Assembly: GCA_963920705.1 (NCBI GenBank)
Contig: OY987239.1
Coordinates: 11,291,004-11,355,003, forward strand
Length of the DNA: 64,000 bases
Reading direction: 5' to 3'
Origin: Odiellus spinosus
Taxonomy: Eukaryota; Arthropoda; Arachnida; Opiliones; Phalangiidae
Below, in pieces: positions 2,888-63,715 of this stretch. Positions within the stretch are counted from its first letter, which is position 1; every line of letters starts with the position of its first letter. Below the pieces are notes generated by a model that was not told the origin of the DNA, did not search any database, and saw only the letters and a program-made list of their open reading frames with translations. The translations under genes were made by a program, and so were the position numbers.

Positions 2888-3224
2888 CAGAAACCAATGA
2901 AACCCTCCTTTGAAGTCTATTACTCCCGGGTCTTGTCTACCCCTCTCTGTATGGGTTAGTTTCAAAAAGCGCGATTCGTACGCCTCCTAACGGTAGATAT
3001 TTTCGGAGCGGGAGTTCGTCGAGCGAATATCTCTAGCAGCCTCGGAGTTCGTCAAAAAAACGTCGTCGTTTGTGGAGAGAGAGAATTTCCAATTTTCCGT
3101 AGACAGGGGGGATGAAGTAGGACCCCTTCTAACTCGTAAAATTGTGAATTTTACCCATACAGAGAGGAGCGCTATATGGAACATTAGAATAGTAGACTTC
3201 AAAGGAGGGTTTCATCGGCTTCTG
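2888..3224. mobile_element. MITE family A, copy 1
   Basis: A 337-bp element with long terminal inverted repeats (CAGAAACCAATGAAACCCTC, then CTTTGAAGTCTA; mirrored at the right as TTCAAAGGAGGGTTTCATCG, then GCTTCTG). It starts with CAG and ends with CTG. The flanks ATAAAAC and ATAAACC form a 7-bp target duplication with one mismatch. ORFs in it recur in every copy because the sequence is repetitive. No transposase is encoded. Confidence 0.9.
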
Positions 3225-3774
3225 ATAAACCCAAATGTTTCCTAAGATTTTCCCTTTCGTGAACCAAGGCCTTCGAGTAACGTGCATTAAGTATTTTAAC
3301 ATCAAAGGAGATTATCGCGACACTTTGAAGTAAATATTTAAATTCATCGCTTTTGATTCAAATTTCAAGCTATTCAGGAATTGGAGCTTAATTTATGTAT
3401 ATAATTATCCAATTATTAAATATTAGATCTATAATTTATGATTGGGTTCATTAGGAAATTGTATGATATCAAACAGATTTCTGCTGAATAATATATCACA
3501 TATCTTATATCGCCTCGCTTTTAAAGATATCCCTATGCAATAATATTGGAGGTAACAGTTGACTTGATCAACACCTAACTGTTAATGAGTATTATAGTTT
3601 GAAAAAGGGTATGATATAAGTATTTTTCCAACACCTTTATGTGACCAAATGGTTAATAAAATCAGGTTTTGCCATGGAAATTGGCTATGATACGCATTTG
3701 GTTGAAAAAAGTTACAGTATTCTATTGTTTTGCGTGAAAATTTGACACATAATGTAAAATGGAAGTCCATAGCA
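3225..3774. other. intergenic, no recognised feature
   Basis: AT-rich sequence between MITE A copy 1 and the 32-bp minisatellite. I see no gene, repeat or regulatory site that I can support. Confidence 0.5.
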
Positions 3775-4671
3775 CCGATTTCCCTGAAATTTCCACGTTT
3801 TTCCACAAATATTTCCCTGAAATTTCCACGTTTTCCACAAATATTTCCCTGAAATTTCCACGTTTTCCACAAATATTTCCCTGAAATTTCCACGTTTTCC
3901 ACAAATATTTCCCTGAAATTTCCACGTTTTGCCACAAATATTTCCCTGAAATTTCCACGTTTTCCACAATTTCCCTGAAATTTCCACGTTTTCCACAATT
4001 TCCCTGAAATTTCCACGTTTTTCCACAAATATTTCCCTGAAATTTCCACGTTTTCCACAATTTCAATTAAATTTTCACGTTTTCCACAATTTCCCTGAAA
4101 TTTCCACGTTTTCCACAAATATTTCCCTGAAATTTCCACGTTTTCCCACAAATATTTCAATGAAATTTCAACGTTTTTCACAAATATTTCCCTGAAATTT
4201 CCACGTTTTCCCACAAATATTTCCCTGAAATTTCAAGGTTTTCCACAAATATTTCCCTGAAATTTTCACGTTTTCCACAAATATTTCCCTGAAATTTCCA
4301 CGTTTTCCACAATTTCCCTGAAATTTCCACGTTTTCCACAAATATGTCCCTGAAATTTCCACGTTTTCCACAAATATTTCCCTGAAATTTCCACGTTTTC
4401 CACAAATATTTCCCTGAAATTTCCACGTTTTCCACAAATATTTCCCTGAAATTTCCACGTTTTCCACAAATATTTCAATGAAATTTCCACGTTTTCCACA
4501 AATATATCCCTGAAATTTCCACGTTTTCCACAAATATTTCCCTGAAATTTCCACGTTTTCCACAAATATTTCCCTGAAATTTCCACGTTTTCCACAAATA
4601 TTTCCCTGAAATTTCCACGTTTTCCACAAATATTTCCCTGAAATTTCCACGTTTTCCCACAAATATTTCAA
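3775..4671. repeat. 32-bp minisatellite with 29-bp variants, about 28 copies
   Basis: The unit core is CCCTGAAATTTCCACGTTTT, then CCACAAATATTT. Spacing is 32 bp, with some units 3 bp shorter (CCACAATTT in place of CCACAAATATTT). Because 32 is not a multiple of 3 and units rarely contain stops on the minus strand, several long overlapping minus-strand ORFs appear here. They are periodic artefacts, not genes. Confidence 0.95.
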
Positions 4672-5935
4672 TGAAATTTATTTTCCCACCTTGGTTTTAA
4701 TTATCATTCATTATGGCATTCGTAATGACTAATAACCAAACTTTACTAATTTAGGTTAATTAGGAAGCCTAATAAATATATTTTAAATTTTTCAATTAAA
4801 GCCTCGATATTATTTTTTGTTTAAAAATAATAGATCTGATTTAAAAGCTTTATAAAGTTATAACAAAATTAATAAAAGCGAATTCAACAGCTATAGAACA
4901 ATAGATATAACTCCGAGAGTGAGATTAATTAATCCTAATTAATTTTGCCCTTACTCGATAATTTATAATAGTTAGGTAACTTTAGGGTAACTTTGTACCA
5001 GAAATTAATAATATAAAACCATCTAAGGTGTGTTTAGATTAAGATTAAGATTATCAATCAATAATTAAAATTGTACTTACAGGTTTTGAAGTTCTAGAAG
5101 TAATCCATTATTTTTCTTGAAATTAACGCGAAAGTTAAATTAATCTGGATATTCTAAGCCTAAACCTTACACTTAATTACAATTAAATCATTAAAAAATT
5201 AGCACCGTTAATAATTAATATTATCTACGATTTAATTTGTTAAAATACTAAACTTACCATAATCAAAAATATGGTTATTATATTTGGGATTTAGCAGGGT
5301 GTTCAATAATCCATAATATATTCAACTTCATCATACTGGCTTCAAAATCCATCCATTCTTATTAGACGGTTAGAATATCCCGCCCATTCTGATAATTGGA
5401 GATCGAACTTATTTTAACTCCTTCCGAAATAATTACGTGATTTTCACCGTGATTTATTGTTGAATCACTAAGTAGATAACTTAAACTAACTCGTTGATAT
5501 AAATTTAGATAGTTAACTCGAAATATTTACATCTTTTCAATCAAATAAAGTCACAGCAACAAAATTTGTCTCACTTAACGGTAAAACGCCGGTCGACTAC
5601 TAACGGAAAAATTTTCACGCCAGTCCAACGACGAAGCCAATAGGTATTGCGTTATTTTAAACTTATGGATATCTTTAAAATAATGCGTCGTCTGCCACCA
5701 ATTTTTGTAATTAAGTTTGAATGTATGATTTACACTTATTAGTTGAATTAACACTTCAAAAGTAATTAATTTATTTATGCAAACACTAATTAGCCTTTCT
5801 AATGTTGATTAGAAATGTTCTGTACCTTCCATGACCGTCAGTAACTCAATGTCAAGTCATCCAATCAGAACATAAGTGTATATTAAAATGTAAATAGACC
5901 ATCATTATTGCTAAGCCTTTGCAAAAAAATTTTTT
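4672..5935. other. AT-rich intergenic DNA
   Basis: 1.26 kb of AT-rich sequence with many TTAAT and AATTAA runs and no ORF, exon-like stretch or tandem repeat that I can support. Confidence 0.5.
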
Positions 5936-6213
5936 CATAAGAATATGGGAGGGCCACGATTCAATAACCATCCTCCCAAACTTTGTATCAAAAGTTCGTC
6001 CGCTTCGAATCGATTTTTCAAGTAAATCGCTCCTGAAATCTATTATTAACCCGCGCCACTAACGACCTTGACATAATATTTTGGGTAATAAAAATGGAGC
6101 CGACCGAAAAAAGATCTAAGCGTACAAATGTCGCGAAAATTGCGGACGAAGTTTTGTTACAAAGTTTGGGAGGATGGTACCAGAGGCTAAAGCTATGCTC
6201 CCATATTCTTATG
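5936..6213. mobile_element. palindromic MITE with CATAAGAATATGGGAG termini
   Basis: CATAAGAATATGGGAG at 5936 is the exact reverse complement of the end at 6213. Internal segments also pair: CCATCCTCCCAAACTTTGTA near 5970 with TACAAAGTTTGGGAGGATGG near 6158. The element is a near-complete foldback of 278 bp. Superfamily is uncertain. No coding capacity. Confidence 0.75.
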
Positions 6214-6957
6214 GAACCTGAATGGATTCTTGGTATCATGATAATATTTCGGCATATTAGTCTAATGTAATACGATAAACGCCTACACGGTTAACCAAGG
6301 CTTAAAAAGATTGGATATAAACCAACGTATGAAAACGTCAATTACTTTTCTTCACGGTTGATTTCGCTTCCAACGCCTTAGCCGCGAACCAAATGGAATC
6401 CTCGCTCGAAATTAAGTAAGGACAGTTAGATCAGAGCCTACCCACCCCTAGCTGGACCACAAGTTCAAGAGCGTAGGCATCTATTAATTTAAAGATTAAA
6501 AATAATCTAGTTGTTAACGAACACGTATTTGGGTCTGGGAAAAAACTCCGATAGGTGGTCAAAGAAATACTTTAGGTCTTGGTCCAGCAGATGGGTAATC
6601 TCTTATCTTAGCTATCCCCGAAAATGAACATCATTCCGTCGGTTCATTGGAGAGCTAGCTGCGATAGTGATCACAGAAACTCTTACGTGTGAAATCGCGC
6701 CTTTAGATTTGGTCAAAAAGTTGATCGAGCCAAGCTGTTTATCGGTGACCAGGGAAAGTTAATTTAAGTGTTAGGTATCGCTTGGATAAATTCGTACTCT
6801 CTCGCGGGTTTCTTTCTCCGACTCTCATCTTGTCTTTCTGGACGATATGTTTGATGTGCTTCCTCTTACCAACACATACAGGGTGTTTACCTAATATTAC
6901 TTAGTAGCTTCGAATAGTTAATTTCTTTTTATTAACTATTAGTACTTTATCTGAATT
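6214..6957. other. intergenic, no recognised feature
   Basis: Mixed-composition sequence between a MITE and the family D element. No supported gene or repeat. Confidence 0.4.
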
Positions 6958-8605
6958 AAGTACTTTTACTAGAAAGACAGCGCGAAAGTGATCTTATCAC
7001 TGCAGGTGCCATAACTTACAAAAATAAATTGTAACTCTAACATCATTTAAATCACGCGACCATAATGATGACGTGGATTGCGGGGAATTTTTATTTTAAA
7101 ACATTTCGAAAATGGGTGATTATAAAATATGAATTTTTACTGTCGTGGTAATTAGGGTCGTATCTTCTCCGTGTCTTTTCCTAAAGTGTTGAAGCTGTGT
7201 TCCTCGTATAGCCCCATTCTTAATCTACAAAATGAGCTCTTCCATCTTTAAATAGACCCAACCAAAGTTAAGTTATACATTTTTAAATGAAAGTGTTCAC
7301 AAATAGAAGCGTTCAGATTTAGGAGTAAATGGGTGATTATAAAATATGTATTTTTACTGTCTCGGTAATTAGGGTCCTATCTTCTCCGTGTCTTTTCCTA
7401 GAGTGTTGAAGCTGTGTTTAACGAATAGCCCCATTCTTAATCTACAAAATGAGCCCTTCCATCTTTAAATAGACCCAACCAAAGTTAAGTTATACATTTT
7501 TAAATGAAAGTGTTCACAAATAGAAGCGTCCGTTCAGATTTAGAAGGAAAATGGGTGATTATAAAATATGTATTTTTACTGTCTCGGTAATTAGGGTCGT
7601 ATCTTCTCCGTGTCTTTTCCTAGAGTGTTGAAGCTGTGTTTAACGAATAGCCCCATTCTTAATCTACAAAATGAGCCCTTCCATCTTTAAATAGACCCAA
7701 CCAAAGTTAAGTTATACATTTTTAAATGAAAGTGTTCACAAATAGAAGCGTCCGTTCAGATTTAGAAGGAAAATGGGTGATTATAAAATATGTATTTTTA
7801 CTGTCTCGGTAATTAGGGTCGTATCTTCTCCGGGTTTTTTCCTAAAGTGTTGAAGCTGTGTTCCCCGTATAGCCCCATTCTTAATCTACAAAATGAGCTC
7901 TTCCATCTTTAAATAGACCCAACCAAAGTTAAGTTATACATTTTTAAATGAAAGTGTTCACAAATAGAAGCGTGCGTTCAGATTTAGGAGAAAAATGGGT
8001 GATTATAAAATATGTATTTTTACTGTCGCGGTAATTAGGGTCGTATCTTCTCCGGGTTTTTTCCTAAAGTGTTGAAGCTGTGTTTAACGAATAGCCCCAT
8101 TCTTAATCTACAAAATGAGCTCTTCAATCTTTAAATAGACCCAACCAAAGTTAAGTTATACATTTTTAAATGAAAGTGTTCACAAATAGAAGCGTCCGTT
8201 CAGATTTAGAAGGAAAATGGGTGATTATAAAATATGTATTTTTACTGTCTCGGTAATTAGGGTCGTATCTTCTCCGTGTCTTTTCCTAGAGTGTTGAAGC
8301 TGTGTTTAACGAATAGCCCCATTATTAATCTACAAAATGAGCTCTTCCATCTTTAAATCGACCCAACCAAAGTTAAGTTATACATTTTTAAATGAAAGTG
8401 TTCACAAATAGAAGCGTTCAGATTTAGGAGTAAATGGAGATTATTAAAAATGTATTTTTACTGTCACTGTAATTTTGTTCTATGACATATGTATATATAT
8501 TTTGAATCGTTTTTTAATGATCTTTCCAAAAATCTGACTCAATTTCCATTTGGAGTTCATGAAAAATAGTGAGAGCTTCGCTTTAAAGGCCAACACGGGG
8601 GGGGG
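6958..8605 (+). mobile_element. dispersed element D, copy 1, expanded by an internal 222-bp array
   Basis: The left end AAGTACTTTTAC and the following segment (GCGAAAGTGATCTTATCACT) match, in reverse, 28440-28503. The segment with GATGACGTGGATTGCGGGGA, then ATTTTTATTTTAAAA, and the right part (TGACATATGTATATATATTT, then TGAATCGTTTTTTAA) match copies at 27.8-28.5 kb, 52.7-53.0 kb and 54.2 kb. In this copy, about 1.3 kb of tandem units replaces what is one short segment elsewhere. Clear terminal inverted repeats are not evident, so this is not an ordinary MITE. Confidence 0.7.
7112..8434. repeat. 222-bp tandem array inside element D, 6 units
   Basis: Units begin with ATGGGTGATTATAAAATATG at 7112, 7329, 7551, 7773, 7995 and 8217, and a decayed start lies at 8434, giving periods of 217, 222, 222, 222, 222 and 217 bp. 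Copies are nearly identical, which suggests recent amplification. About 35 bp of each unit is element-D sequence. The remaining ~187 bp (with AATTAGGGTCGTATCTTCTC) is absent from the other D copies in this window. Confidence 0.93.
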
Positions 8606-8609
8606 GGGG
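8597..8609. repeat. poly-G run of 13
   Basis: Thirteen consecutive G residues in otherwise AT-rich DNA, right at the end of element D. The exact length is likely to vary and is error-prone in sequencing. Confidence 0.9.
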
Positions 8610-9082: not shown

Positions 9083-11764
9083 ACAACTTTAATTAATTGG
9101 ATAAATCTACTGAATTAAATTCAGATAACTTTAATTAATTGGATAAATATACTGAATTAAATTCAGATAACTTTAATTAATTGGATAAATCTACTGAATT
9201 AAATTCAGATACCTTAAATTAATTGGATAAATCTACTGAATTAAATTCAGATAACTTTAATTAATTGGATAAATCTACTGAATTAAATTCAGATACCTTA
9301 AATTAATTGGATAAATCAACTGAATTAAATTCAGATAACTTTAATTAATTGGATAAATCTACTGAATTAAATTCAGATAACTTTAATTAATTGGATAAAT
9401 ATACTGAATTAAATTCAGATAACTTTAATTAATACGATAAATCTACTGAATTAAATTCAGATACCTTTAATTAATTGGATAAATCTACTGAAATAAATTC
9501 AGATAACTTTAATTAATACGATAAATCTACTGAATTAAATTCAGATACCTTAAATTAATTAGATAAATCTACTGAATTAAATTCAGATACCTTAAATTAA
9601 TTGGATAAATCTACTGAAATAAATTCAGATACCTTAAATTAATTGGATAAATCTACTGAATTAAATTCAGATAACTTTAATTAATTGGATAAATCTACTG
9701 AATTAAATTCAGATACCTTAAATTAATACGATAAATCTACTGAATTAAATTCAGATACCTTTAATTAATTGGATAAATCTACTGAAATAAATTCAGATAA
9801 CTTTAATTAATTGGATAAATCTACTGAATTAAATTCAGATAACTTTAATTAATTGGATAAATCTACTGAATTAAATTCAGATAACTTTAATTAATTGGAT
9901 AAATCTACTGAATTAAATTCAGATAACTTTAATTAATACGATAAATCTACTGAATTAAATTCAGATACCTTTAATTAATTGGATAAATCTACTGAAATAA
10001 ATTCAGATAACTTTAATTAATACGATAAATCTACTGAATTAAATTCAGATACCTTTAATTAATTGGATAAATCTACTGAAATAAATTCAGATAACTTTAA
10101 TTAATACGATAAATCTACTGAATTAAATTCAGATAACTTAAATTAATTGGATAAATCTACTGAATTAAATTCAGATACCTTAAATTAATTGAATAAATCT
10201 ACTGAATTAAATTCAGATAACTTTAATTAATTGGATAAATCTACTGAATTAAATTCAGATACCTTAAATTAATTGGATAAATCTACTGAATTAAATTCAG
10301 ATACCTTAAATTAATTGGATAAATCTACTGAATTAAATTCAGATACATTAAGTTAATTGGATAAATCAACTGAATTAAATTCAGATACCTTAAATTAATT
10401 GGATAAATCTACTGAATTAAATTCAGATAACTTAAATAAATTGGATAAATCTACTGAATTAAATTCAGATACCTTAAATTAATTGAATAAATCTACTGAA
10501 TTAAATTCAGATAACTTTAATTAATTGGATAAATCTACTGAATTAAATTCAGATACCTTAAATTAATTGGATAAATCTACTGAATTAAATTTAGATACCT
10601 TAAATTAATTGGATAAATCAACTGAATTAAATTCAGATAACTTAAATTAATTGGATAAATATATTGAAATTCAGATAAAATTGTAATTAATTGGATAAAT
10701 CTATTGAATTAAATTCAGATAAAATTGTAATTAATTGGATAAATCTAATGAATTAAATTCGAATAAAATTGTAATTAATTGGATAAATCTATTGAATTAA
10801 ATTCGAATAAAATTGTAATTAATTGGATAAACCAACTGAATTAAATTCAGATAACTTTAATTAATTGGATAAATCAACTGAATTAAATTCAGATAACTTT
10901 AATTAATTGGATAAATCTACTGAAATAAATTCAGATAACTTTAATTAATTGGATAAATATATTGAAATTCTGATAAAATTGTAATTAATTGGATAAATCT
11001 ACTGAATTAAATTCAGATAACTTTAATTAATTGGATAAATATATTGAAATTCTGATAAAATTGTAATTAATTGGATAAATCTACTGAATTAAATTCAGAT
11101 ACCTTAAATTAATTGGATAAATCTACTGAATTAAATTCAGATACCTTAAATTAATTGGATAAATCTACTGAATTAAATTTAGATACCTTAAATTAATTGG
11201 ATAAATCAACTGAATTAAATTCAGATAACTTAAATTAATTGGATAAATATATTGAAATTCAGATAAAATTGTAATTAATTGGATAAATCTATTGAATTAA
11301 ATTCAGATAAAATTGTAATTAATTGGATAAATCTAATGAATTAAATTCGAATAAAATTGTAATTAATTGGATAAATCTATTGAATTAAATTCGAATAAAA
11401 TTGTAATTAATTGGATAAATCAACTGAATTAAATTCAGATAACTTTAATTAATTGGATAAATCAACTGAATTAAATTCAGATAACTTTAATTAATTGGAT
11501 AAATCTACTGAAATAAATTCAGATAACTTTAATTAATTGGATAAATATATTGAAATTCTGATAAAATTGTAATTAATTGGATAAATCTACTGAATTAAAT
11601 TCAGATAACTTTAATTAATTGGATAAATATATTGAAATTCTGATAAAATTGTAATTAATTGGATAAATCTACTGAATTAAATTCAGATACCTTAAATTAA
11701 TTGGATAAATCTACTGAATTAAATTCAGATAACTTTAATTAATTGGATAAATATACTGAATTAA
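9083..11764. repeat. 42-bp AT-rich satellite, about 64 copies, with higher-order structure
   Basis: Unit core: TTAATTAATTGGATAAATCT, then ACTGAATTAAATTCAG. Spacing is 42 bp, for example 9121 to 9163. The CTGAATTAAATTCAG part is almost a perfect palindrome. Variants (AATACGATAA, TAAAATTGTAATT, a shortened ATATTGAAATTC unit) recur in a fixed order. The block with AATTTAGATACC at about 10591 reappears at about 11179, 588 bp later (14 x 42). This shows segmental amplification of multi-unit blocks. Confidence 0.95.
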
Positions 11765-11767
11765 TCT

Positions 11768-12129: not shown

Positions 12130-12540
12130 AAACGTAATCCATATCCGTTTTTATCCAAAAATGGCCTTATCTTAGAATATTATCCGCGTTATACGTTCGG
12201 ATAAAAAACATTCAAAATTTATTTTCCGTGAAAAATAACGAATAAAAAGATGATTTAAAATCTTAGTTTCGTCGTTTTATTTATATTCTTCGAATTAAAA
12301 GTCAATTTGAAATTTTTTTCTTATATTTTAGACTCTGGAAACGCGAATTATCCATCGTTATACGTTTGAAAACGAGTAATTTGTAGGTAGATAAAGCGGC
12401 GAAGGCTTATCTTCGGGTAAACCTTTTAACAATTATACGAATATAGAAATTTCATTGTTTTAGTTACAATTTATCCGAAAATAAAATATCTGAAAATATA
12501 CGAATAACGGAAGATAATGGATCGATCCGATTAGGAGCTC
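12130..12540 (-). mobile_element. MITE family B, copy 1 (partial, reverse)
   Basis: Reverse complement of the element at 26963-27505. Landmarks are AGATGATTTAAAATCTTAGT, AACGCGAATTATCCATCGTT, GGCTTATCTTCGGGTAAACC and the terminal GATCGATCCGATTAGGAGCT. It lacks one terminus. Confidence 0.8.
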
Positions 12541-14859: not shown

Positions 14860-15198
14860 CAGAAGCCGATGAAACCCTCCTTTGAAGTCTACTACTCTAA
14901 TGTTCGATAAAGCGCTCCTCTCTGTATGGGTGAAATTCCCAATTTTACGAGATCGGAGGGGTCCTACTTCATACCCCCCTGTCTACGGAAAATTGGAAAT
15001 TCTCTCTCTCCATAAACGACGACGTTTTTTAGACGAACTCCGAGGGTTGCTAGAGATATTCGCTGGACGAACTCCCGCTCCGAAAATATCTACCGTTAGG
15101 AGGCGTACGAATCGCGCTTTTTGAAACTAACCCATACAGAGAGGGGTAGACAAGACCAGGGAGTAATATACTTCAAAGGAGGGTTTCATCGGCTTCTG
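14860..15198 (+). mobile_element. MITE family A, copy 2
   Basis: CAGAAGCCGATGAAACCCTC at the left and its inverted match GAGGGTTTCATCGGCTTCTG at the right. The flanks (TCATAGC and ACAAGTT) do not form a duplication, so the site was rearranged or the element is old. The plus-strand ORF of 80 codons inside it is a family-wide artefact. Confidence 0.88.
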
Positions 15199-15441
15199 AC
15201 AAGTTTTAGGTGTATATACTTTTAAAGGTTAAGTAGAAGGCAACTAGAGGTATATGACAGTTGTTAGAGAGAAATTGTCTCTGTAAAAAAAAACTAACTT
15301 AATTGGTCCAGAAGAAGAAGTAAAAAATAACGAGACCTTTAAGAAATAGAAATGTTTTTGTGACACCTGTCAAAACTTTAATCGTGTCCTTGAAAAGATA
15401 ATATTTTTTTTTAGAGTTCATTTAAAAGGGATTTAAAGAAA

Positions 15442-19252: not shown

Positions 19253-19583
19253 CAGAAGCCGATGAAACCCTCCTTTGAAGTCTATTACTCCCGGGTCTTG
19301 TCTACCCCTCTCTGTAAGGGTTAGTTTCAAAAAGCGCGATTCGTTCGCCTCCTAACGGTAGATATTTTCGGAGCGGGAGTTCGTCGAGCGAATATCTCTA
19401 GCAGCCTCGGAGTTCGTCAAAAAAACGTCGTCGTTTGTGGAGAGAGAGAATTTCCAATTTTCCGTAGACAGGGGGGTATGAAGTAGGACCCCTCCGATCT
19501 CGTAAAATTGTGAATTTTACCCATACAGAGAGGAGCGCTATATGGAAGTAGTAGACTTCAAAGGAGGGTTTCATCGGCTTCTG
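19253..19583 (-). mobile_element. MITE family A, copy 3
   Basis: CAG...CTG element with the family's terminal repeats, flanked by an exact 7-bp duplication, GTAACGA (19246-19252 and 19584-19590). It lies 54 nt after the GPCR stop codon and may be transcribed as part of that gene's 3' UTR. Confidence 0.93.
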
Positions 19584-21035: not shown

Positions 21036-21316
21036 CAAGGAGGATTAGACAAGGAGAAGAAATGTGGGGACGGCGCGGTTCCTACTGCGTCGGCCTAAAC
21101 TCCCACTCTGGGAGAACGGGGGTAGAGACGTTTCGTGGTAAAATGTTGTCGCGTGGGTAAAACGAATCCTTTATGAGACGCGCTAGCTAGCGACCACGTG
21201 ACAACAGTTTACCTCGAGAATTTCCTATCCCCCCTTTCCACCCGAGTGGGAGGTTGGCTCTTCTCTCTCTAACTCAACGCAGCCCCACATTTCCTCTCCT
21301 TGTCTAATCCTCCTTG
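21036..21316 (+). mobile_element. MITE family E, copy 1
   Basis: Starts CAAGGAGGATTAGACAAGGA and ends with its inverted match TCCTTGTCTAATCCTCCTTG. It is flanked by an exact 7-bp duplication TTTATAT (21029-21035 and 21317-21323). The interior is also largely self-complementary, for example around CCACGTGACAACAGTTTACC. No coding capacity. Confidence 0.95.
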
Positions 21317-24312: not shown

Positions 24313-24506
24313 TTCTTTAACATCCCATACATTTCAATCCATATTTGTACAATTTGGAGTATTTAAAAATTAAAACGGTACTTATTTATTTACTTAAATG
24401 TTAGTACTTAAAATAAAAAGAACATTAAGTGTCCGTAAAGATAAACGTACCACTATGCGTAAACTTTAGTGACCCTTCGTAAAAAGAGGCTAAGGATCGT
24501 TGAGTC

Positions 24507-24786
24507 AAGGAGGATTAGACAAGGAGAGGAAATGTGGGGCTGCGTTGAGTTAGAGAGAGAAGAGCCAACCTCCCACTCGGGTGGAAAGGGGGGATAGGAA
24601 ATTCTCGAGGTAAACTGTTGTCACGTGGTCGCTAGCTAGCGCGTCTCATAAAGGATTCGTTTTACCCACGTGACAACATTTTACCACGAAACGTCTCTAC
24701 CCCCGTTCTCCCAGAGTGGGAGTTTAGGCCGACGCAGTAGGAACCGCGCCGTCCCCACATTTCTTCTCCTTGTCTAATCCTCCTTG
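24507..24786 (-). mobile_element. MITE family E, copy 2
   Basis: CAAGGAGG...CCTCCTTG element, flanked by an exact 7-bp duplication GTTGAGT (24500-24506 and 24787-24793). It is inverted relative to copy 1. Confidence 0.95.
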
Positions 24787-27779: not shown

Positions 27780-28503
27780 TAAAGCGGCACTGTTACTGAC
27801 TTTTCATGAACTCCAAATGAAAATTGAGTGATATTTTCGGGTTAATCGTTAAAAAACGATTCAAAATATATATACATATGTCATAGAACAAAATTACAGG
27901 GACAGGAAAAATACATATTTTCAGAGGTATATAATAACTCCCTTCGGGGGGAAGTATGAAAGCCCCTATACTACCAATGCTAAAAATCACGAACAACGAG
28001 AGCCCCCTGCTGACTATCTAGGCCACTAGCTCGCGCTGGACTTCTCAATGTCGCTACTCTAGTAAATGGTCTTTGTATAAACAAGACGGCTCGATTTGTG
28101 TTTAGAACTTCCTGTCTCGGGAGTCAGGCTGTCTGTTAAATTGGAGTCGAAGGTTGACTTCAGCTCGCGAGTTCCGGAAGCGCGCGTAGGGAAAATTTAG
28201 TCAGGTTCAAAATGGTGTAACTATTTTTTGGGAGTAAAGCGGCGTGTCGATCCGCCGCGATTTACGCCGGGCACTCGTTGTTCGTCGATTTTGCCTACCT
28301 TTCATACTTCCACCCGAAGGGGGTTATTATATACCTCTGATATTTTATAATCGCCCATTTTCGAAATTTTTAAAATTTAAATTCCCCGCAATCTACGTCA
28401 TCACTATGGTCACGTGTTTCGATATTTTATAGATTCTCGCGCGTAATTATGGCACCAGTGATAAGGTCACTTTCGCGCCGTCTTCTTCGTAAAAGTACTT
28501 TAT
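27780..28503 (-). mobile_element. dispersed element D, copy 2, split by a family C MITE
   Basis: Reads in reverse relative to copy 1: TTAAAAAACGATTCAAAATA, then ACATATGTCATAGAACAAAA before the insertion, and CCCATTTTCGAAATTTTTAA, GCAATCTACGTCATCACTAT and GTAAAAGTACTT after it. MITE C copy 1 interrupts it at 27922-28339. The uninterrupted copy at 52.7-53.0 kb confirms continuity. Confidence 0.85.
27922..28339 (-). mobile_element. MITE family C, copy 1, nested in element D
   Basis: A 418-bp CAGAGGTATA...TATACCTCTG element, flanked by an exact 7-bp duplication ATATTTT (27915-27921 and 28340-28346). Near each end is a small hairpin region with CCCTTCGGGGGG or its variant. Copy 3 of D (near 52885) reads ACATATTTTATAATC, with a single ATATTTT and no insertion. 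This is a natural empty site. Confidence 0.96.
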
Positions 28504-28542: not shown

Positions 28543-32442
<3,900 letters not shown>

Positions 32443-33192: not shown

Positions 33193-33529
33193 CAGAAGCC
33201 GATGAAACCCTCCTTTGAAGTCTACTACTCCATTGTTCCATATAGCGCTCCTCTCTGTATGGGTAAAATTCCCAATTTTACGAGTTAGAAGGGGTCCTAC
33301 TTCTTCCCCCCTGTCTACGGAAAATTGTAAATTCTCTCTCTCCACAAACGACGACGTTTTTTTGACGAACTCCGAGGCTGCTAGAGATATTCGCTCGACG
33401 AGCTCCCGCTCCGAAAACATCTACCGTTAGGAGGCGTACGAATCGCGCCTTTTGAGAATAACCCATACAGAGAGGGGTAGACAAGACCCGGGAGTAATAG
33501 ACTTTAAAGGAGGGTTTCATCGGCTTCTG
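33193..33529 (+). mobile_element. MITE family A, copy 6
   Basis: Exact 7-bp duplication ATGTGGC (33186-33192 and 33530-33536). It lies upstream of the GGT coding region. The terminal repeats are typical of the family. Confidence 0.95.
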
Positions 33530-35914: not shown

Positions 35915-36332
35915 CAGAGGTATATAATAACCCCCTTCGGGGGGAAGTATGAAAGGTAGGCAAAATCGACGAACAACGAGTGCCCGGCGTAAATCGCGGC
36001 GGATCGACACACCGCTTTACTCCCAAAAAATAGTTACACCATTTTGAACCTGACTAAATTTTCCCTACGCGCGCTTCCGGAACTCGCGAGCCGAAGTCAA
36101 CCTTCGACTCCATTTTAACAGACAGCCTAACTCCCGAGACAGGAAGTTCTAAACACAAATCGAGCCGTCTTGTTTATACAAAGACCATTTACTAGAGTAG
36201 CGACATTGAGAAGTCCAGCGCGAGCTAGTGGCCTAGATAGTCAGCAGCGGGCTCTCGTTGTTCGTGATTTTTAGCATTGGTAGTATAGGGGCTTTCATAC
36301 TTCCCCCCGAAGGAGGCTATTATATACCTCTG
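35915..36332 (+). mobile_element. MITE family C, copy 3
   Basis: A 418-bp copy with an exact 7-bp duplication TTATTAT (35908-35914 and 36333-36339). Confidence 0.95.
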
Positions 36333-36851: not shown

Positions 36852-40247
<3,396 letters not shown>

Positions 40248-44865: not shown

Positions 44866-45283
44866 CAGAGGTATATAATAACCCCCTTCGGGGGGAAGTA
44901 TGAAAGCCCCTATACTACCAATGCTAAAAATCACGAACAACGAGAGCCCGCTGCTGACTATCTAGGCCACTAGCTCGCGCTGGACTTCTCAATGTCGCTA
45001 CTCTAGTAAATGGTCTTTGTATAAACAAGACGGCTCGATTTGTGTTTAGAACTTCCTGTCTCGGGAGTCAGGCTGTCTGTTAAAATGGAGTCGAAGGTTG
45101 ACTTCGGCTCGTAAGTTCCGGAAGCGCGCGTAGGGAAAATTTAGTGAGGTTCAAAATGGTGTAACTATTTTTTGGGAGTAAAGCGGTGTGTCGATCCGCC
45201 GCGATTTACACCGGGCAATCGTTGTTCGTCGATTTTGCCTACCTTTCATACTTCCCCCCGAAGGGGGTTATTATATACCTCTG
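44866..45283 (-). mobile_element. MITE family C, copy 4
   Basis: A full-length 418-bp copy. The 7-bp flanks (CTAATAG and ATGTTAC) do not match, so the site has been rearranged since insertion. The interval 45284-45607 has no supported feature. Confidence 0.93.
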
Positions 45284-45607: not shown

Positions 45608-45945
45608 CAGAAGTAGATGAAACCCTCCTTTGAAGTCTACTACTCTAATGTTCCATATAGCGCTCCTCTCTGTATGGGTAAAATTCCCAATTTTACGAGA
45701 TCGGAGGGGTCCAACTTCATACCCCCCTGTCTACGGAAAATTGGAAATTCTCTCTCTCCACAAACGACGACGTTTTTTTGACGAACTCCGAGGCTGCTAG
45801 AGATATTCGCTCGACGAACTCCCGCTCCGAAAATATCTACCGTTAGGAGGCGTACGAATCGCGCTTTTTGAAACTAACCCATACAGAGAGGGGTAGACAA
45901 GACCCGGGAGTAATATACTTCAAAGGAGGGTTTCATCGGCTTCTG
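45608..45945 (+). mobile_element. MITE family A, copy 7
   Basis: Exact 7-bp duplication GTTTAAC (45601-45607 and 45946-45952). The left end has GTAGATG where most copies have GCCGATG. Confidence 0.95.
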
Positions 45946-46613: not shown

Positions 46614-46904
46614 CAAGAAGGATCAGACAAGGAGAGGAAAAGTGGGGACGGCGCAGTTCCTACTGCGTCGGCCTAAACTCCAACTCTGGGAGAACGGGGG
46701 TAGAGATGTTTCGTGGTAAAATGTTGTCACGTGGTTAAAACGGATCCTTTATCAGCTTCGTAGTAGCCAAGGACGCTAGTGACCACGTGACAACAGTTTA
46801 CCTCGAGAATTTCCTATCCCCCTTTCCACCCGAGTGGGAGGTTGGCTCTTCTCTCTCTAACTCAACGCAGCCCTACTTTTCCTCTCCTTGTCTGATCCTT
46901 CTTG
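46614..46904 (+). mobile_element. MITE family E, copy 3
   Basis: CAAGAAGGATCAGACAAGGA...TTGTCTGATCCTTCTTG, with an exact 7-bp duplication CTTTTAT (46607-46613 and 46905-46911). The terminal variant (AAGAAGGATC) is shared with copy 4 and defines a subfamily. Confidence 0.95.
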
Positions 46905-51687: not shown

Positions 51688-51989
51688 CAAGAAGGATCAG
51701 ACAAGGAGAGGAAAAGTGGGAACGGCGCGGTTCCTACTGCGTCGGCCTAAACTCCCACTCTGGGAGAACGGGGGACAGACGCGGGTAGAGTTGCTTCGTG
51801 GTAAATTGTTGTCACGTGGGTAAAACGGATCCTTTATGAGACGCGTAGTAGCCGACGACGCTAGCGACCACGTGACAACAGTTTACCTCGAGAATTTCCT
51901 ATCCACCTTTCCAACCGAGTGGGAGGTTGGCTCTTCTCTCTCTAACTCAACGCAGCCCCACTTTTCCTCTCCTTGTCTGATCCTTCTTG
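51688..51989 (+). mobile_element. MITE family E, copy 4
   Basis: AAGAAGGATC-type subfamily, with an exact 7-bp duplication CCCGCAT (51681-51687 and 51990-51996). A small internal insertion near 51775 (ACAGACGCGGGTAG) is absent from copy 1. Confidence 0.95.
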
Positions 51990-52744: not shown

Positions 52745-53045
52745 TTAAAGTGAGGGTGTCACGTATTTTAACGAACTCCAAATAGAAATTGAGTGATATT
52801 TTCGGGTTGATCGTTAAAAAACGATTCAAAATATATATACATATGTCAGAGAACAAAATTACAATGACTGTAAAAATACATATTTTATAATCACCCATTT
52901 TCGAAATATTTAAAATAAAAATTCCCCGCAATCTACGTCATCACTATGGTCACGTGATTACCCTATTGTATAGAGCTTCTTACAGTTAATTCTCGACCTG
53001 GCACCAATGATAAGGTCGTTTTCTACCTTTCGTTGTACTACAAGT
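52745..53045 (-). mobile_element. dispersed element D, copy 3 (uninterrupted)
   Basis: Same order as copy 2 but without the family C insertion and without the 222-bp array. Contains AAAAACGATTCAAAATATAT, GTAAAAATACATATTTTATA and GCAATCTACGTCATCACTAT. Its terminus is decayed (GATAAGGTCGTTTTCTACC). It serves as the empty-site reference. Confidence 0.8.
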
Positions 53046-53331: not shown

Positions 53332-53669
53332 CAGAAGCCGATGAAACCCTCCTTTGAAGTCTATTACTCCCTGGTCTTGTCTACCCCTCTCTGTATGGGT
53401 TATTCTCAAAAGGCGCGATCCGTACGCCTCCTAACGGTAGATGTTTTCGGAGCGGGAGTTCGTCGAGCGAATATCTCTAGCAGCCTCGGAGTTCGTCCAA
53501 AAAACGTCGTCGTTTGTGGAGAGAGAGAATTTCCAATTTTTCGTAGACAGGGGGGGATGAAGTAGGACCCCTTCTAACTCGTAAAATTGTGAATTTTACC
53601 CATACAGAGAGGAGCGCTATATGGAACATTGGAGTAGTAGACTTCAAAGGAGGGTTTCATCGGCTTCTG
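53332..53669 (-). mobile_element. MITE family A, copy 8
   Basis: Exact 7-bp duplication ATTCTAT (53325-53331 and 53670-53676). It is inserted between a poly-A/T tract (53677-53696) and the candidate exon to its left. Confidence 0.95.
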
Positions 53670-53882: not shown

Positions 53883-54220
53883 CAGAAGTAGATGAAACCC
53901 TCCTTTGAAGTCTACAACTCTAATGTTCCATATAGCGCTCCTCTCTGTATGGGTAAAATTCCCAATTTTCCGAGATCAGAGGGGTCCTACTTCATACCCC
54001 CCTGTCTACGGAAAATTGGAAATTCTCTCTCTCCACAAACGACGACGTTTGGTTGACGAACTCAAAGGTTGCTAGAAATATTCGCTGGACGAACTCCCGC
54101 TCCGAAAATATCTACCGTTAGGAGGCGTACGAATCGCGCTTTTTGAAACTAACCCATACAGAGAGGGGTAGACAAGACCAGGGAGTAATAGACTTCAAAG
54201 GAGGGTTTCATCGGCTTCTG
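53883..54220 (+). mobile_element. MITE family A, copy 9
   Basis: GTAGATG-type left end like copy 7. The flanks (GTTCAGT and ATATATA) do not match. It lies 213 bp from copy 8. Confidence 0.9.
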
Positions 54221-54230
54221 ATATATACAA

Positions 54231-54778: not shown

Positions 54779-57110
54779 TCCCACCATTCGGTCGAACGCG
54801 TAACCTCGAAAGAATTTTCTAAAACCATTCCGTCGAACGCGTAACCTCGAAAGAATTTTCTGCAACCATTCCGTCGAACGCGTAACCTCGAAAGAATTTT
54901 CTGCAACCATTCCGTCGAACGCGTAACCTCGAAAGAAGTTTCTAAAACCATTCCGTCGAACGCGTAACCTCGAATGAATTTTCTAAAACCATTCCGTCGA
55001 ACGCGTAACCTCGAAAGAATTTTCTAAAACCATTCCGTCGAACGCGTAACCTCGAAACAATTTTCTAAAACCATTCCGTCGAACGCGTAACCTCGAAAGA
55101 ATTTTCTAAAACCATTCCGTCGAACGCGTAACCTCGAAAGAATTTTCTAAAACCATTCCGTCGAACGCGTAACCTCGAAAGAAGTTTCTAAAACCATTCC
55201 GTCGAACGCGTAACCTCGAAAGAAGTTTCTAAAACCATTCCGTCGAACGCGTAACCTCGAAAGAATTTTCTAAAACCATTCCGTCGAACGCGTAACCTCG
55301 GAAGAAGTTTCTAAAACCATTCCGTCGAACGCGTAACCTCGAAAGAAGTTTCTAAAACCATTCCGTCGAACGCGTAACCTCGAAAGAAGTTTCTAAAACC
55401 ATTCCGTCGAACGCGTAACCTCGAAAAAATTTTATAAAACCATTCCGTCGAACGCGTAACCTCGAAATAATTTTCTAAAACCATTCCGTCGAACGGGTAA
55501 CCTCGAAAGAATTTTCTAAAACCATTCCGTCGAACGCGTAACCTCGAAAGAATTTTCTAAAACCATTCCGTCGAACGCGTAACCTCGAAAGAATTTTCTA
55601 AAACCATTCCGTCGAACGCGTAACCTCGAAATAATTTTCTAAAACCATTCCGTCGAACGCGTAACCTCGAAAGAATTTTCTAAAACCATTCCGTCGAACG
55701 CGTAACCTCGAAAGAATTTTCTAAAACCATTCCGTCGAACGCGTAACCTCGAAAGAAGTTTCTAAAACCATTCCGTCGAACGCGTAACCTCGAAAGAAGT
55801 TTCTAAAACCATTCCGTCGAACGCGTAACCTCGAAAGAATTTTCTAAAACCATTCCGTCGAACGCGTAACCTCGAAAGAATTTTCTAAAACCATTCCGTC
55901 GAACGCGTAACCTCGAAAGAAGTTTCTAAAACCATTCCGTCGAACGCGTAACCTCGAAAGAAGTTTCTAAAACCATTCCGTCGAACGCGTAACCTCGAAA
56001 AAATTTTATAAAACCATTCCGTCGAACGCGTAACCTCGAAATAATTTTCTAAAACCATTCCGTCGAACGGGTAACCTCGAAAGAATTTTCTAAAACCATT
56101 CCGTCGAACGCGTAACCTCGAAAGAATTTTCTAAAACCATTCCGTCGAACGCGTAACCTCGAAAGAATTTTCTAAAACCATTCCGTCGAACGCGTAACCT
56201 CGAAAGAAGTTTCTAAAACCATTCCGTCGAACGCGTAACCTCGAAAGAAGTTTCTAAAACCATTCCGTCGAACGCGTAACCTCGAAAGAATTTTCTAAAA
56301 CCATTCCGTCGAACGCGTAACCTCGGAAGAAGTTTCTAAAACCATTCCGTCGAACGCGTAACCTCGAAAGAAGTTTCTAAAACCATTCCGTCGAACGCGT
56401 AACCTCGAAAGAAGTTTCTAAAACCATTCCGTCGAACGCGTAACCTCGAAATAATTTTCTAAAACCATTCCGTCGAACGGGTAACCTCGAAAGAATTTTC
56501 TAAAACCATTCCGTCGAACGCGTAACCTCGAAAGAATTTTCTAAAACCATTCCGTCGAACGCGTAACCTCGAAAGAATTTTCTAAAACCATTCCGTCGAA
56601 CGCGTAACCTCGAAAGAAGTTTCTAAAACCATTCCGTCGAACGCGTAACCTCGAAAGAAGTTTCTAAAACCATTCCGTCGAACGCGTAACCTCGAAAGAA
56701 GTTTCTAAAACCATTCCGTCGAACGCGTAACCTCGAAAGAAGTTTCTAAAACCATTCCGTCGAACGCGTAACCTCGAAAAAAATTTATAAAACCATTCCG
56801 TCGAACGCGTAACCTCGAAAGAAGTTTCTAAAACCATTCCGTCGAACGCGTAACCTCGAAAAAAATTTATAAAACCATTCCGTCGAACGCGTAACCTCGA
56901 AAGAAGTTTCTAAAACCATTCCGTCGAACGCGTAACCTCGAAATTTTTTTCTAAAACCATTCCGTCGAACGCGTAACCTCGAAAGAAGTTTCTAAAACCA
57001 TTCCGTCGAACGCGTAACCTCGAAAGAATTTTCTAAAACCATTCCGTCGAACGCGTAACCTCGAAAGAAGTTTCTAAAACCATTCTGTCGAACGCGTAAC
57101 CTCGAAAGAA
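54779..57110. repeat. 41-bp satellite, about 57 copies, with higher-order structure
   Basis: Unit: CCATTCCGTCGAACGCGTAA, then CCTCGAAAGAATTTTCTAAA plus A, spaced 41 bp (55081 to 55122). Variants GAAGTTTC, ATAATTTTC and AAAATTTTATA mark units. The block around 55421-55491 (AAAAATTTTATA unit, ATAATTTT unit, then a GAACGGGTAA unit) recurs 574 bp later (55995-56065), which is 14 units, and its last part recurs at 56475, 10 units further. The 65-codon minus-strand ORF at the left edge is periodic. CpG-containing units (TCGAACGCG) are notable in AT-rich DNA. Confidence 0.96.
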
Positions 57111-57871
57111 CTCTTTATAACCATTCCGTAACCTCGAAAGAACCTCTTAACCATTCCTAAGAAAACGCAATCGGAAAAGCGTACAAGATCTACAATCGCG
57201 ATTCGGTCAAGAGATACTAACCTAATCAATGCCTATACTTTCCTACTCATACTTTACACGTAGTTAATGGCCTTTTGCCAACACTCTCTTAATTACCAAA
57301 CCCAAGTTATCGGGGTCAAACGAGCGCTACGAATCAATAGGGGGTTCAAGGTCGCGACATTATCAAGCATTTTCGCTCTTGACCCTGATTATTTTATTTT
57401 TCCTACAACCCTTCACTGTTTTCAGCAATATTAATTAATTTTAATCTATCTTGCGCTTGCGCATTACGAGTGCGGAGTTATTAGCCACGTTTGGGAAAGA
57501 ACGTAGGTCATTCGGAAAGTTAGGCACTTGTGACCGACTCGAACGTATCTCTCCCGGTCGCAGGACCTTTGACCCTTAGAGAAATGTGGTTCATTAACTC
57601 TGCCGGGTCATCAAGGACCCCGTAAGTTTGGCGATGCGCTGCTGATGTCCGTTTCTGGGTTGGAGCTCGCGAAGAGTCACTTAGGGACTGTTAGGACCCG
57701 TGGGATTTGGATTTTAGGTTAAGAACCCTACTTCGCGTTGCTGTTTTTGTGATTTTCAGCTACTTGGAGGACCAGACTTTGTTGTCTCGATACTTCGTGT
57801 CTAACTTTGATCATAAAGTAATTGATGGTTGAACGCGTTTGAAATTATTGTATCATAAGGATTCGGGGGTG
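57111..57871. other. sequence between two satellites, no supported gene
   Basis: The first 50 bp is decayed 41-bp repeat. The remainder is the most GC-balanced non-repetitive stretch in the right half of the window, but I find no ORF or splice-bounded exon that I can support. Confidence 0.4.
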
Positions 57872-58985
57872 GGATGATAAACTAATTGTATGAATTCGAC
57901 ATTTGATAAACTAATTGTATGAATTCGACATTTGATAAACTAATTATCAGGATTCGACATTTGATAAACTAATTATCAGGATTCGACATTTGATAAACTA
58001 ATTATCAGGATTCGACATTTGATAAACTAATTATCAGGATTCGACATTTGATAAACTAATTATCAGGATTCGACATTTGATAAACTAATTGTAAGGATTC
58101 GACATTTGATAAACTAATTCTCAGGATTCGACATTTGATAAACTAATTATCAGGATTCGACATTTGATAAACTAATCGTAAGGATTCGACATTTGATAAT
58201 CTAATTGTCAGGATTCGACATTTGATAAAGTAATTGTCAGGATTCGACATTTGATAAACTAATTGTAAGGATTCGACATTTGATAAACTAATTATCAGGA
58301 TTCGACATTTGATAAACTAATTGTTAGGATTCGACATTTGATAAACTAATTGTAAGGATTCGACATTTGATAAACTAATTGTAAGGATTCGTCATTTGAT
58401 AAACTAATTATCAGGATTCGACATTTGATAAACTAGTTGTAAGGATTCGACATTTGATAAACTAATCGTAAGGATTCGACATTTGATAAACTAGTTGTAA
58501 GGATTCGACATTTGATAAACTAATTATCAGGATTCGACATTTGATAAACTAATTGTAAGGATTCGACATTTGATAAACTAATTATCAGGATTCGACATTT
58601 GATAAACTAATTATCAGGGTTCGACATTTGATAAACTAATTGTAAGGATTCGACATTCGATAAACTAATTGTAAGGATTCGACATTCGATAAACTAATTG
58701 TAAGGATTCGACATTTGATAAACTAATCGTAAGGATTCGACATTTGATAAACTAATCGTAAGGATTCGACATTTGATAAACTAGTTGTAAGGATTCGACA
58801 TTTGATAAACTAATTATCAGGATTCGACATTTGATAAACTAATTATCAGGATTCGACATTTGATAAACTAATTGTAAGGATTCGACATTTGATAAACTAA
58901 TTGTAAGGATTCGACATTTGATAAACTAATTATCAGGATTCGACATTTGATAAACTAATTGCAATGATTCGACATTTGAAAATTG
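57872..58985. repeat. 29-bp satellite, about 38 copies
   Basis: Unit TTTGATAAACTAATTGTAAG, then GATTCGACA, spaced 29 bp (57961 to 57990). Two main variants, ATTGTAAGG and ATTATCAGG, alternate in runs. It ends in a GTCAGGGAAAA-type fragment near 59010-59070. Confidence 0.95.
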
Positions 58986-59398: not shown

Positions 59399-59931
59399 TA
59401 TAGCTCGGAATCTTCTGTTATTCGTATATTTTCAGATATTTTATTTTCGGATAAATTGTTCGTAACTAAAACATGAAATTTCTATATTCGTATAATTGTT
59501 AAATGGTTTACCCGAAGATAAGCCTTCGCCGCTTTATCTACCTACAAATTACTCGTTTTCAAACGTATAACGATGGATAATTCGCGTTTCCAGAGTCTAA
59601 AATATAAGAAAAATATTTCAAAATTGACTTTTAATTCGAAGAATATAAATAAAACGACGAAACTAAGATTTTAAATCATCTTTTTATTCGTTATTTTTCA
59701 CGAAAATCAATTTTGAATGTTTTTTATCCGAACGTATAACGCGGATAGTATTCTAAGATAAGTTGCCATTTTTGTTGGATAATAAAAACGGATATGGATT
59801 AGGTTTTTGTTACTTTATCTTGGAATAAGTTAACTCGAATGAAAAATAGTCTATTTTTAATCAGATTGATTTACATCAGAATTTAGTAGATTTTATCCAA
59901 TTAATAAAAATGATACGAATTCCGAGCTCTA
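59399..59931 (+). mobile_element. MITE family B, copy 8 (nearly complete)
   Basis: Starts TATAGCTCGGAAT with a small deletion of the GATCGATCC segment, and ends ACGAATTCCGAGCTCTA. TA lies at both ends. Internal segments match copy 6. Confidence 0.88.
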
Positions 59932-60284
59932 ATAATGGGTATGAAAATGTAGCCGTTTTGCGAGCGGCTAGTTCAATGAAGGTCCAAATTAATCGAAGGC
60001 CTCTGGTTCAGGAGGGAAGATTATTGGGTGTGGCTCCGAAGGGCATTTATGTATAACGGATCCCTGAATATTACAGTGTCCAGTCAATAGCGGGCTTTTC
60101 CTTCTAATAATTAATTAAAACATGAAAAAAAGGTAGCTACTACATAGACGAATAATTGATCCATAGGAGAATGTTAAAGTTTTCGTCATTTTTGACCGAC
60201 AAACAAACCACATATTAAATTAACTATTAAACAAACAAATCATAAATTAAATTAATTACTAAACAAATACACCACAACTTAAAT

Positions 60285-60985
60285 TTATCTATTTAATAAA
60301 CAAATTATAAATTGATTTATTTAATAAATAAACTATAAATTGATTTATTTAATAAATAAACTATAAATTGATTTATTTAATAAATAAACTATAAATTGAT
60401 TTATTTAATAAATAAACTATAAATTGATTTATTTAATAAATAAACTATAAATTGATTTATTTAATAAATAAACTATAAATTGATTTATTTAATAAATAAA
60501 CTATAAATTGATTTATTTAATAAATAAACTATAAATTGATTTATTTAATAAATAAACTATAAATTGATTTATTTAATAAATAAACTATAAATTTATTTAT
60601 TTAATAAATAAACTATAAATTTATCCATTTAATAAACTATAAATTTATCCATTTAATAAACTATAAATTTATCCATTTAATAAACTATAAATTTATCCAT
60701 TTAATAAATAAACTATAAATTTATCCATTTAATAAATAAACTATAAATTTATCCATTTAATGAATAAACTATAAATTTATCCTTTTAATAAATAAACTAT
60801 AAATTTATTTATTTAATAAATAAACTATAAATTTATTTATTTAATAAATAAACTATAAATTTATTTATTTAATAAATAAACTATAAATTGATTTATTTAA
60901 TAAATAAACTATAAATTGATTTATTTAATAAATAAACTATAAATTGATTTATTTAATAAATAAACTATAAATTTATTTATTTAAT
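60285..60985. repeat. 28-bp AT-only satellite, about 25 copies
   Basis: Unit TTGATTTATTTAATAAATAA, then ACTATAAA, spaced 28 bp (60361 to 60389), with a CCATTTAATAAA variant block in the middle. TTTATTTAATAAATA is nearly palindromic. Apart from isolated G or C it is pure A/T. Confidence 0.95.
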
Positions 60986-61641: not shown

Positions 61642-61922
61642 CAAGGAGGATCAGAGAAGGAGAGGAAATGTGGGGCTGCGTTGAGTTAGAGAGAGAAGAG
61701 CCAACCTCCCACTCGGGTGGAAAGGGGGGATAGGAAATTCTCGAGGTAAACTGTTGTCACGTGGTCGCTAGCTAGCGCGTCTCATAAAGGATTCGTTTTA
61801 CCCACGCGACAACATTTTACCACGAAACGTCTCTACCCCCGTTCTCCCAGAGTGGGAGTTTAGGCCGACGCAGTAGGAACCGCGCCGTCCCCACATTTCC
61901 TCTCCTTCTCTGATCCTCCTTG
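61642..61922 (-). mobile_element. MITE family E, copy 5
   Basis: CAAGGAGGATCAGAGAAGGA...TTCTCTGATCCTCCTTG, with an exact 7-bp duplication TTTGAAT (61635-61641 and 61923-61929). The interval 61930-62418 holds no supported feature. Confidence 0.95.
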
Positions 61923-62425
61923 TTTGAATTAAGGTTTAGACCAGTATCGCTCTTAATATTTCCCTCTGGTCACGTGATAAAATAAGTAGTAAAGGGTTAT
62001 TTTAGTACGATAAAAAACACGAGATGGCGCTGATTTTGCATAATATCTGTTTGATTGTTTGATTTCCCAGTCTACTTATCTCTCTCTCTTACCTCTTTCC
62101 CCAGTATCCCGCCTCTCGTTGCGGGTGGGCACACTGTAGGCCAGACGGTGACTTTATTGTGGCGATATAAACACCGTTATAATAAACGTTTCTAAATTCT
62201 ACCACGAACTAGGTAGGTTCGAATATTACCATTTCGTTGGAAGTAAAGTTCTAGCGATATTAGAACGCGAGGGATAAAATTTCAATTAAGTTTATTTTTA
62301 AACAAGATTCGATATAATCTCAGACGTTATAATTATCAAAATTATGTCGTGAACTAAAGAAGATTTCAATTTAAATTTAAGTGAAAATTGGGGACTGATC
62401 GCGTTTGTGGTTCGATTGATAATAG

Positions 62426-62844
62426 CAGAGGTATATAATAATCCCCTTCGTGGGGAAGTATGAAAGCCCCTATACTACCAATGCTAAAAATCACGAACAA
62501 CGAGAGCCCGCTGCTAACTATCTAGGCCACTAGCTCGCGCTGGACTTCTCAATGTCGCTACTCTAGTAAATGGTCTTTGTATAAACAAGACCGCTCGATT
62601 TGTGTTTAGAACTTCCTGTCTCGGGAGTCAGGCTGTCTGTTAAAATGGAGTCGAAGGTTGACTTCGGCTCGCGAGTTCCGGAAGCGCGTGTAAGGAAAAT
62701 TTAGTGAGGTTCAAAATGGTGCAACTATTTTTTTGGGAGTAAAGCGGTGTGTCGATCCGCCGCGATTTAGGCCGGGTACTCGTTGTTCGTCGATTTTGCC
62801 TACCTTTCATACTTCCCTCCGAAGGGGGTTATTATATACCTCTG
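62426..62844 (-). mobile_element. MITE family C, copy 5
   Basis: A 419-bp copy with an exact 7-bp duplication ATAATAG (62419-62425 and 62845-62851). Confidence 0.95.
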
Positions 62845-63715
62845 ATAATAGGTACCCTTTTAAGTGAGTTACCTATTGACTACCGCCTTATAATCATTCA
62901 CCTGTATCTCAATTTGTCATGTTTCCAATAACAATTTCGTTTTGGGCTCGTCTCTATGATTTCCTCGCTTGACTCATTCCATATCGGGTCAAAGTTGACT
63001 GAACACAATTCACTTAACCTAATTGTTTACACACGATTACAACGTTCAGAGATATTTGTTTATTTACGCAGTCTGATCTGCGGACGTTATTCGTGTGTTA
63101 TCTATCCTAACCAAAGATCATGAGCTGTTTTCCATATCTCTTAGGCAACTTCAAGACCAGATCTCTTAGGCAACTCTTAGGCAACTTCAAGACCAGATCT
63201 TCATGTCGTAAGACAACTTGAAGCCATATCTTTTAAGCAACTAAAATAACCTAATCTGGTGAAGGACACTAGGGTTATTTTCACTTTGTTCAAATCCTAG
63301 CTATAGTGTAACTAGTCAACCAATCCCATGTCCAAATGTTGGTTAATCTTAACATTAGCCCTACCACTGACTCATTAACCGTTTAACATATCAACCGTTA
63401 ATTTTTAACTGAAATTAAAATTAAAGACACTCACCTGGTTAGTTAAAAAAAACGTCCGGCACGTTTCAAAAACGAAAGTAATTGTCCTATCCCAATTGTC
63501 GACCGGTAACTGAAGAACTCACGCGCTGATGGCTTCAGAGACCTCAAGCGTGATGCTTTCGCTTCGATGTTCCCCCGAAAAAGACACCCATACAGAGACT
63601 TACATTTTTATTTCCCCTCGTGCAGGTAACTTTATCACGTGGTTGGACCTTTTTAGCCACACCCCCTTAGGGGGAGGTGTAAGCTACTATATGGTATCAC
63701 CATTTTCTTTGTAGA
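62845..63715. other. intergenic; short imperfect repeats near 63140-63240
   Basis: TCTTAGGCAACTTCAAGACC recurs three times in slightly different form between about 63140 and 63240. No gene that I can support. The 61-codon plus-strand ORF near 63529 has no recognisable features. Confidence 0.4.

Follow-up and report, generated by a model that had tools for sequence, protein, structure and literature searches.

We have analysed a 64 kb stretch of contig C17 (the window) from a genome of 443 Mb in 286 contigs, in which three families of inverted-repeat elements, A, C and E, are dispersed. We put the probability at about 0.83 that all three are non-autonomous, cut-and-paste miniature inverted-repeat transposable elements (MITEs) moved by host transposases of the P superfamily, that is, transposases with a THAP domain and an RNase-H fold. 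Family E is a shortened form of an element of this kind, and families A and C resemble E in the length of their target duplications and in the motif at which they are inserted.

Three MITE families flanked by 7 bp duplications

The families were located by comparing the window with itself, and the ends and flanks of the copies were then read directly. There are nine copies of A (331-339 bp), five of C (418-419 bp) and five of E (281-302 bp), and all 19 begin with CA and finish with TG (Table 1). The terminal inverted repeats (TIRs) are about 38 bp long by eye in A (CAGAAGCCGATGAAACCCTCCTTTGAAG...) and about 41 bp in C (CAGAGGTATATAATAACCCCC...), and E has two subtypes (CAAGGAGGATTAGACAAGGAG and CAAGAAGGATCAGACAAGGAG). 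Comparison of the families with each other by BLAST gave only short words of 8-12 bp, with E values of 0.3 or worse. An exact 7 bp duplication flanks 14 of the 19 copies (A copies 3, 5, 6, 7 and 8, C copies 1, 2, 3 and 5, and E copies 1-5), while such agreement over 7 bp is found for 0.27% of 200,000 randomly drawn pairs of window sites 280-420 bp apart. The unoccupied paralogue of the C copy 1 target holds the 7 bp once, showing that the duplications are real. These results bear out the initial annotation, which had given the same copy numbers and CA/TG ends, had seen no evident similarity among the families and had named the same 14 copies as exactly duplicated. The end of C copy 2 overlaps an open reading frame (ORF; 30048-30506, - strand) that runs on into a gamma-glutamyltranspeptidase-like stretch, and this copy is perhaps an intron insertion near an exon.

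Table 1. Copies of families A, C and E, the empty site of C copy 1, and P-type elements bounded on both sides (window positions for the copies and the empty site; positions within their own loci for the P-type elements)
Feature	Position	Strand	Subtype, ends or remark	7 bp duplication
A copy 1	2888..3224	+		one mismatch (ataaaac/ataaacc)
A copy 2	14860..15198	-		none
A copy 3	19253..19583	+		gtaacga
A copy 4	29574..29910	-		none
A copy 5	31806..32142	+		tttactt
A copy 6	33193..33529	-		gccacat (- strand)
A copy 7	45608..45945	-		gttaaac (- strand)
A copy 8	53332..53669	+		attctat
A copy 9	53883..54220	-		none
C copy 1	27922..28339	+	sits within another repeat	atatttt
C copy 2	30371..30788	-		ctgtaat (- strand)
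C copy 3	35915..36332	-		ataataa (- strand)
C copy 4	44866..45283	+		none
C copy 5	62426..62844	+		ataatag
E copy 1	21036..21316	+	CAAGGAGG subtype	tttatat
E copy 2	24506..24786	-	CAAGGAGG subtype	actcaac (- strand)
E copy 3	46614..46904	+	CAAGAAGG subtype	cttttat
E copy 4	51688..51989	+	CAAGAAGG subtype	cccgcat
E copy 5	61642..61922	-	CAAGGAGG subtype	attcaaa (- strand)
Empty paralogue of the C copy 1 target	52861..52925	+		single 7 bp at 52880-52886
L063 element	1106-6775		5,670 bp; ends CATAGACTAAG (CATAGACTAAGAACGGG)	GTCTGTC
L064 element	1010-4786		3,777 bp; ends CGGTGCCTCC (CGGTGCCTCCGAG)	TTTGAAG
L070 element	1041-5621		4,581 bp; ends CGTTGCCTAC (CGTTGCCTACG)	GTTTATA

Across the genome we counted 25,557 TIR ends of A (28 bp, at most two mismatches), 9,012 of E (27 bp, at most one) and 3,721 of C (41 bp, at most two); control searches with each TIR read backwards gave none. 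Halving these counts, on the assumption of two ends per copy, suggests about 12,800 copies of A, 4,500 of E and 1,900 of C, together about 19,000. With their short length (281-419 bp), TIRs, high copy number and target duplications, the three families are MITEs.

The length of the duplication was followed in a sample of loci on contig C1, taken in listing order and selected for intact TIRs (for A, a perfect left 28 bp; for C and E, both ends fitting the pattern with no mismatches). The right end was found at 28 of the 30 A loci, with an exact 7 bp duplication at 20, a 7 bp duplication with one mismatch at four and none at four. For C the duplication is exact at nine of 10 loci and has one mismatch at the other, and for E it is exact at all 10. 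An exact 7 bp duplication is thus present at 39 of the 48 complete copies of A, C and E sampled in this way outside the window. Lengths of up to 12 bp were tested, and no copy in the window or in the sample has its longest exact duplication at a length other than 7 bp. One additional A copy (L137), which lies outside the sample counts, also has an exact 7 bp duplication. The flanking sequence varies from copy to copy in both sets.

Family E derives from a P-type element

The P RNase-H model PF21787 matches this genome at many places (150 scored among 386 candidates) and matches none of 14 control genomes. At one of these places, locus L069 (C2:22244500-22251500), the two halves of E are found apart: positions 1-144 of E copy 4 align with one end and positions 146-296 with the opposite end, in inverted orientation and in order, and the corresponding matches of E copy 3 are at 1-133 and 135-285. 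Between the halves there is a THAP ORF (1562-1927) and an ORF of 786 amino acids that has a TNP-like RNase H domain and a GTP-binding domain. The alignments show E to be an internal-deletion derivative of a P-superfamily transposon, its two P-type ends fused after the loss of about 5.5 kb with the transposase. L069 is the sole copy of this kind read, and because no duplication is present at its outer ends and its left tip is rearranged, it is regarded as a transposase-bearing relative of at most putative activity. Beside the end, at about 837-858, the first 7 bases of this tip are repeated in inverted form, which looks like the product of faulty hairpin repair.

Full-length candidates for E and C were also sought as TIR pairs 3-6 kb apart among the matches listed, which gave one candidate for each family, and both were rejected. 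The E candidate (C1:7977381-7982816) has the same E end type at both ends and, by eye, lacks a transposase-like frame in the 1.7 kb that was read, and is probably two separate MITEs. The C candidate (C1:17192963-17196504) is an inverted duplication that includes the flanks and has C ends.

P-type transposases in this genome also make 7 bp duplications

Three transposase-bearing elements, L063, L064 and L070, could be bounded on both sides by TIRs identical over the first 16 bases and by exact 7 bp duplications (Table 1); a 5 bp reading of the L063 ends lies within its 7 bp reading. Their ORFs match THAP, RNase H and GTP-binding domains, with the L070 matches spread over two ORFs, and the L063 protein matches the Drosophila P transposase (PDB 6p5a) at 5.4e-19. 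The proteins of L064 and L070 share 53% identity across 572 amino acids. The L063 protein has 27-29% identity to these two and 29% to the L069 protein, which in turn has 22-25% identity to L064 and L070. The bounded elements therefore include distant proteins, so the 7 bp duplication occurs in divergent P groups of this genome. L063 also has two short internal palindromes, at 4505-4574, built from its terminal sequence.

No convincing TIR pair was found at L065, L066 or L067, and a long inverted match at L068 is, by eye, no TIR but a pair of facing THAP-coding stretches. Further candidate inverted repeats, most of them AT-rich and with 3-4 mismatches over 16 bases, were regarded as chance, as were four of the same kind in joined loci. 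A Mutator-type search of the genome gave two matches, at 29 bits.

A palindromic target motif is common to A, C and E

The target sites of all three families favour the palindromic motif TNN[NTNNNAN]NNA, where the brackets enclose the duplicated 7 bp. The data are 53 exact sites (25 of A, 13 of C and 15 of E), which give 50, 26 and 30 half-sites, respectively, and were compared with the base composition of the window by a binomial test. T occupies the second position of the duplication in 37/50 half-sites of A, 22/26 of C and 21/30 of E (3e-9, 7e-8 and 3e-5), and G occupies it in none of the 106. The base at -3 is T in 31/50, 23/26 and 16/30 (2e-5, 6e-9 and 0.016), and is weakest in E.

Assignment of families A and C

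The common 7 bp duplication and the common palindromic target motif make it likely that A and C also belong to the P superfamily. BLAST and profile searches found no transposase-bearing partner for either family at the loci read, which represent 39 of the 150 P places listed and often take in only one side of an element. Nothing was found for C at these loci, and for A there was only a truncated MITE in L070. An unpaired A end at L048 belongs to a truncated A copy, and the stretch read there lacks a transposase-like frame. A second unpaired A end, about 4 kb from a hAT match, is part of an ordinary A MITE, whose left TIR is mismatched and whose 7 bp duplication is exact. Among the matches listed, contig C1 has no perfect C ends between 3.13 and 16.43 Mb but many P and hAT transposase matches, a pattern suggesting that MITE-poor and transposase-rich regions may differ.

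Several observations count against the assignment of all three families to the P superfamily. An exact duplication is lacking at five of the 19 window copies (A copy 1 has one mismatch, and A copies 2, 4 and 9 and C copy 4 have none) and at eight of the 28 A copies sampled. The P-type elements provide only three target sites of their own, too few alone for a motif, and CA/TG ends are not universal among them, as one of the three bounded elements has these ends and two start with CG. To these must be added the state of the outer ends of L069 and the failure to find partners for A and C at the loci read. In addition, hAT transposases are abundant in this genome (150 scored of 220 candidates), hAT elements often start with CAG, and the hAT target has a T near the start and an A near the end of its 8 bp duplication.

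The last three observations suggest an alternative in which A, C or both are a hAT lineage that makes 7 bp duplications and only E is P-type. Both families start with CAG, their partners were not found at the loci read, and the target motif alone is compatible with hAT. The length of the duplication, however, counts more strongly in the other direction: hAT elements in general make 8 bp duplications, whereas every A and C copy examined with an exact duplication has 7 bp. Moreover, the A and C motif resembles that of E, for which the link to P is shown, and the one A end close to a hAT match proved to be that of an ordinary MITE with its 7 bp. We consider a hAT origin unlikely. More doubtful still is that the three families owe their movement to a Dada-like or other superfamily with 6-7 bp duplications. 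The length alone would agree with this, but E has P-type ends and a P-type transposase, three P-type elements make 7 bp duplications here, and the flanks vary between copies, a pattern that hardly suggests insertion into one class of gene. Finally, the single copy read of L069 and its unduplicated outer ends would also fit a P element nested in an E MITE, which would leave E without a proven link to P, but this is very improbable because the E halves abut at 144/146 without a 7 bp overlap and no inner inverted repeat with a 5-9 bp duplication emerged when L069 was scanned.

Taken together, the data favour P-superfamily transposition of all three families. A host P-type transposase would cut out the MITE at the CA and TG termini and insert it where the two target strands are cut 7 bp apart, with a preference for a palindromic target. 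The TIRs and subterminal sequences of A, C and E are unrelated, so each family is probably served by its own P subfamily. The initial annotation had proposed one transposase type for several families. This stands at the level of the superfamily, while a single enzyme for all three seems less likely given these unrelated sequences and the many divergent P lineages in the genome. Of the two types it had suggested, P (named first) and Dada, the former is shown for E, and the duplications and target motif of A and C make it likely for these two as well. It had looked to autonomous elements sharing the MITE ends; L069 is a transposase-bearing relative with E ends, and for A and C no partner appeared at the loci read. 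Mixed duplication lengths, which it had named as evidence to the contrary, were absent from the C1 sample, which is no tally of all genomic copies. Nor were partners from different superfamilies found, the partners of A and C being themselves missing. It had called a consistent 7 bp with CA/TG ends unusual. A length of 7 bp is not unusual for the P superfamily, as Galileo has it (PMC4168063), and CA/TG ends are no rule among the P-type elements here, as two of the three bounded ones start with CG.

These results link one abundant MITE family firmly to a superfamily that is known best from flies, and make the same link probable for two others. That divergent P groups of a single genome uniformly have 7 bp provides natural material for the question of what determines 7 versus 8 bp spacing. 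We suggest, tentatively and with less than even confidence, that the divergent P groups here (CA or CG ends; transposases with 22-29% identity between groups) all cut with a 7 bp stagger, and that a large part of the superfamily may commonly use 7 bp, with the textbook 8 bp of P proper as one variant. The thousands of MITE insertions here would make it possible to test where in the transposase the spacing is determined.

Other features of the window

Among the ORFs of the window are those of a rhodopsin-type receptor, a sulfotransferase and a galactose-3-O-sulfotransferase, along with a gamma-glutamyltranspeptidase stretch, and this content suggests an animal genome. Tandem arrays are numerous, with units of 20 to 222 bp (1-1566, 3778-4679, 7108-8474, 9085-11764, 38028-39390, 54783-57129, 57875-58979 and 60276-60985). 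There is a separate dispersed AT-rich family of variable length (12130-12540, 13715-14535, 15441-16353, 26963-27510, 35010-35471, 59410-59936 and 63715-64000), some copies of which have GAGCTCGG-like ends; by eye, this family has no evident 7 bp duplication. At 17237-17689 there is a long palindromic element with arms of 200 bp and 88% complementarity.

Comparison with known systems

No publication describing families A, C and E was recognised among the titles and starts of abstracts listed, a search that is weak without a species name and that had Repbase outside its range. The case looks like a large but ordinary set of P-element hitch-hikers, 7 bp duplications being already known in the superfamily from Galileo of Drosophila. 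Galileo makes mostly 7 bp duplications with the consensus GTANTAC in a palindromic target motif (PMC4168063). It is like A, C and E in the 7 bp length, the T at position 2, the A at position 6 and the palindromic target (PMC4168063), and like the P-type elements of this genome in its transposase. Its TIRs are long and internally repetitive (PMC3573991), in contrast with the TIRs of about 30-40 bp and the MITEs of 281-419 bp described here.

The P-MITEs of Anopheles gambiae have 5' and 3' P-element ends, and several families are present in the genome, linked to particular P subfamilies (PMC1562414). They are like E in carrying P ends, and as here one genome has several families, but their duplications are of 8 bp and their central region has no relation to P (PMC1562414), whereas in E the P ends are joined directly and the duplication is 7 bp. 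The Drosophila P element and zebrafish Pdre2 have P/THAP9-type transposases, as here, and the Pdre2 TIR (CATACCTGTCAAC) has the same CA/TG ends as A, C and E (PMC10983969). Both differ from the three families in making 8 bp duplications (PMC7776569, PMC10983969).

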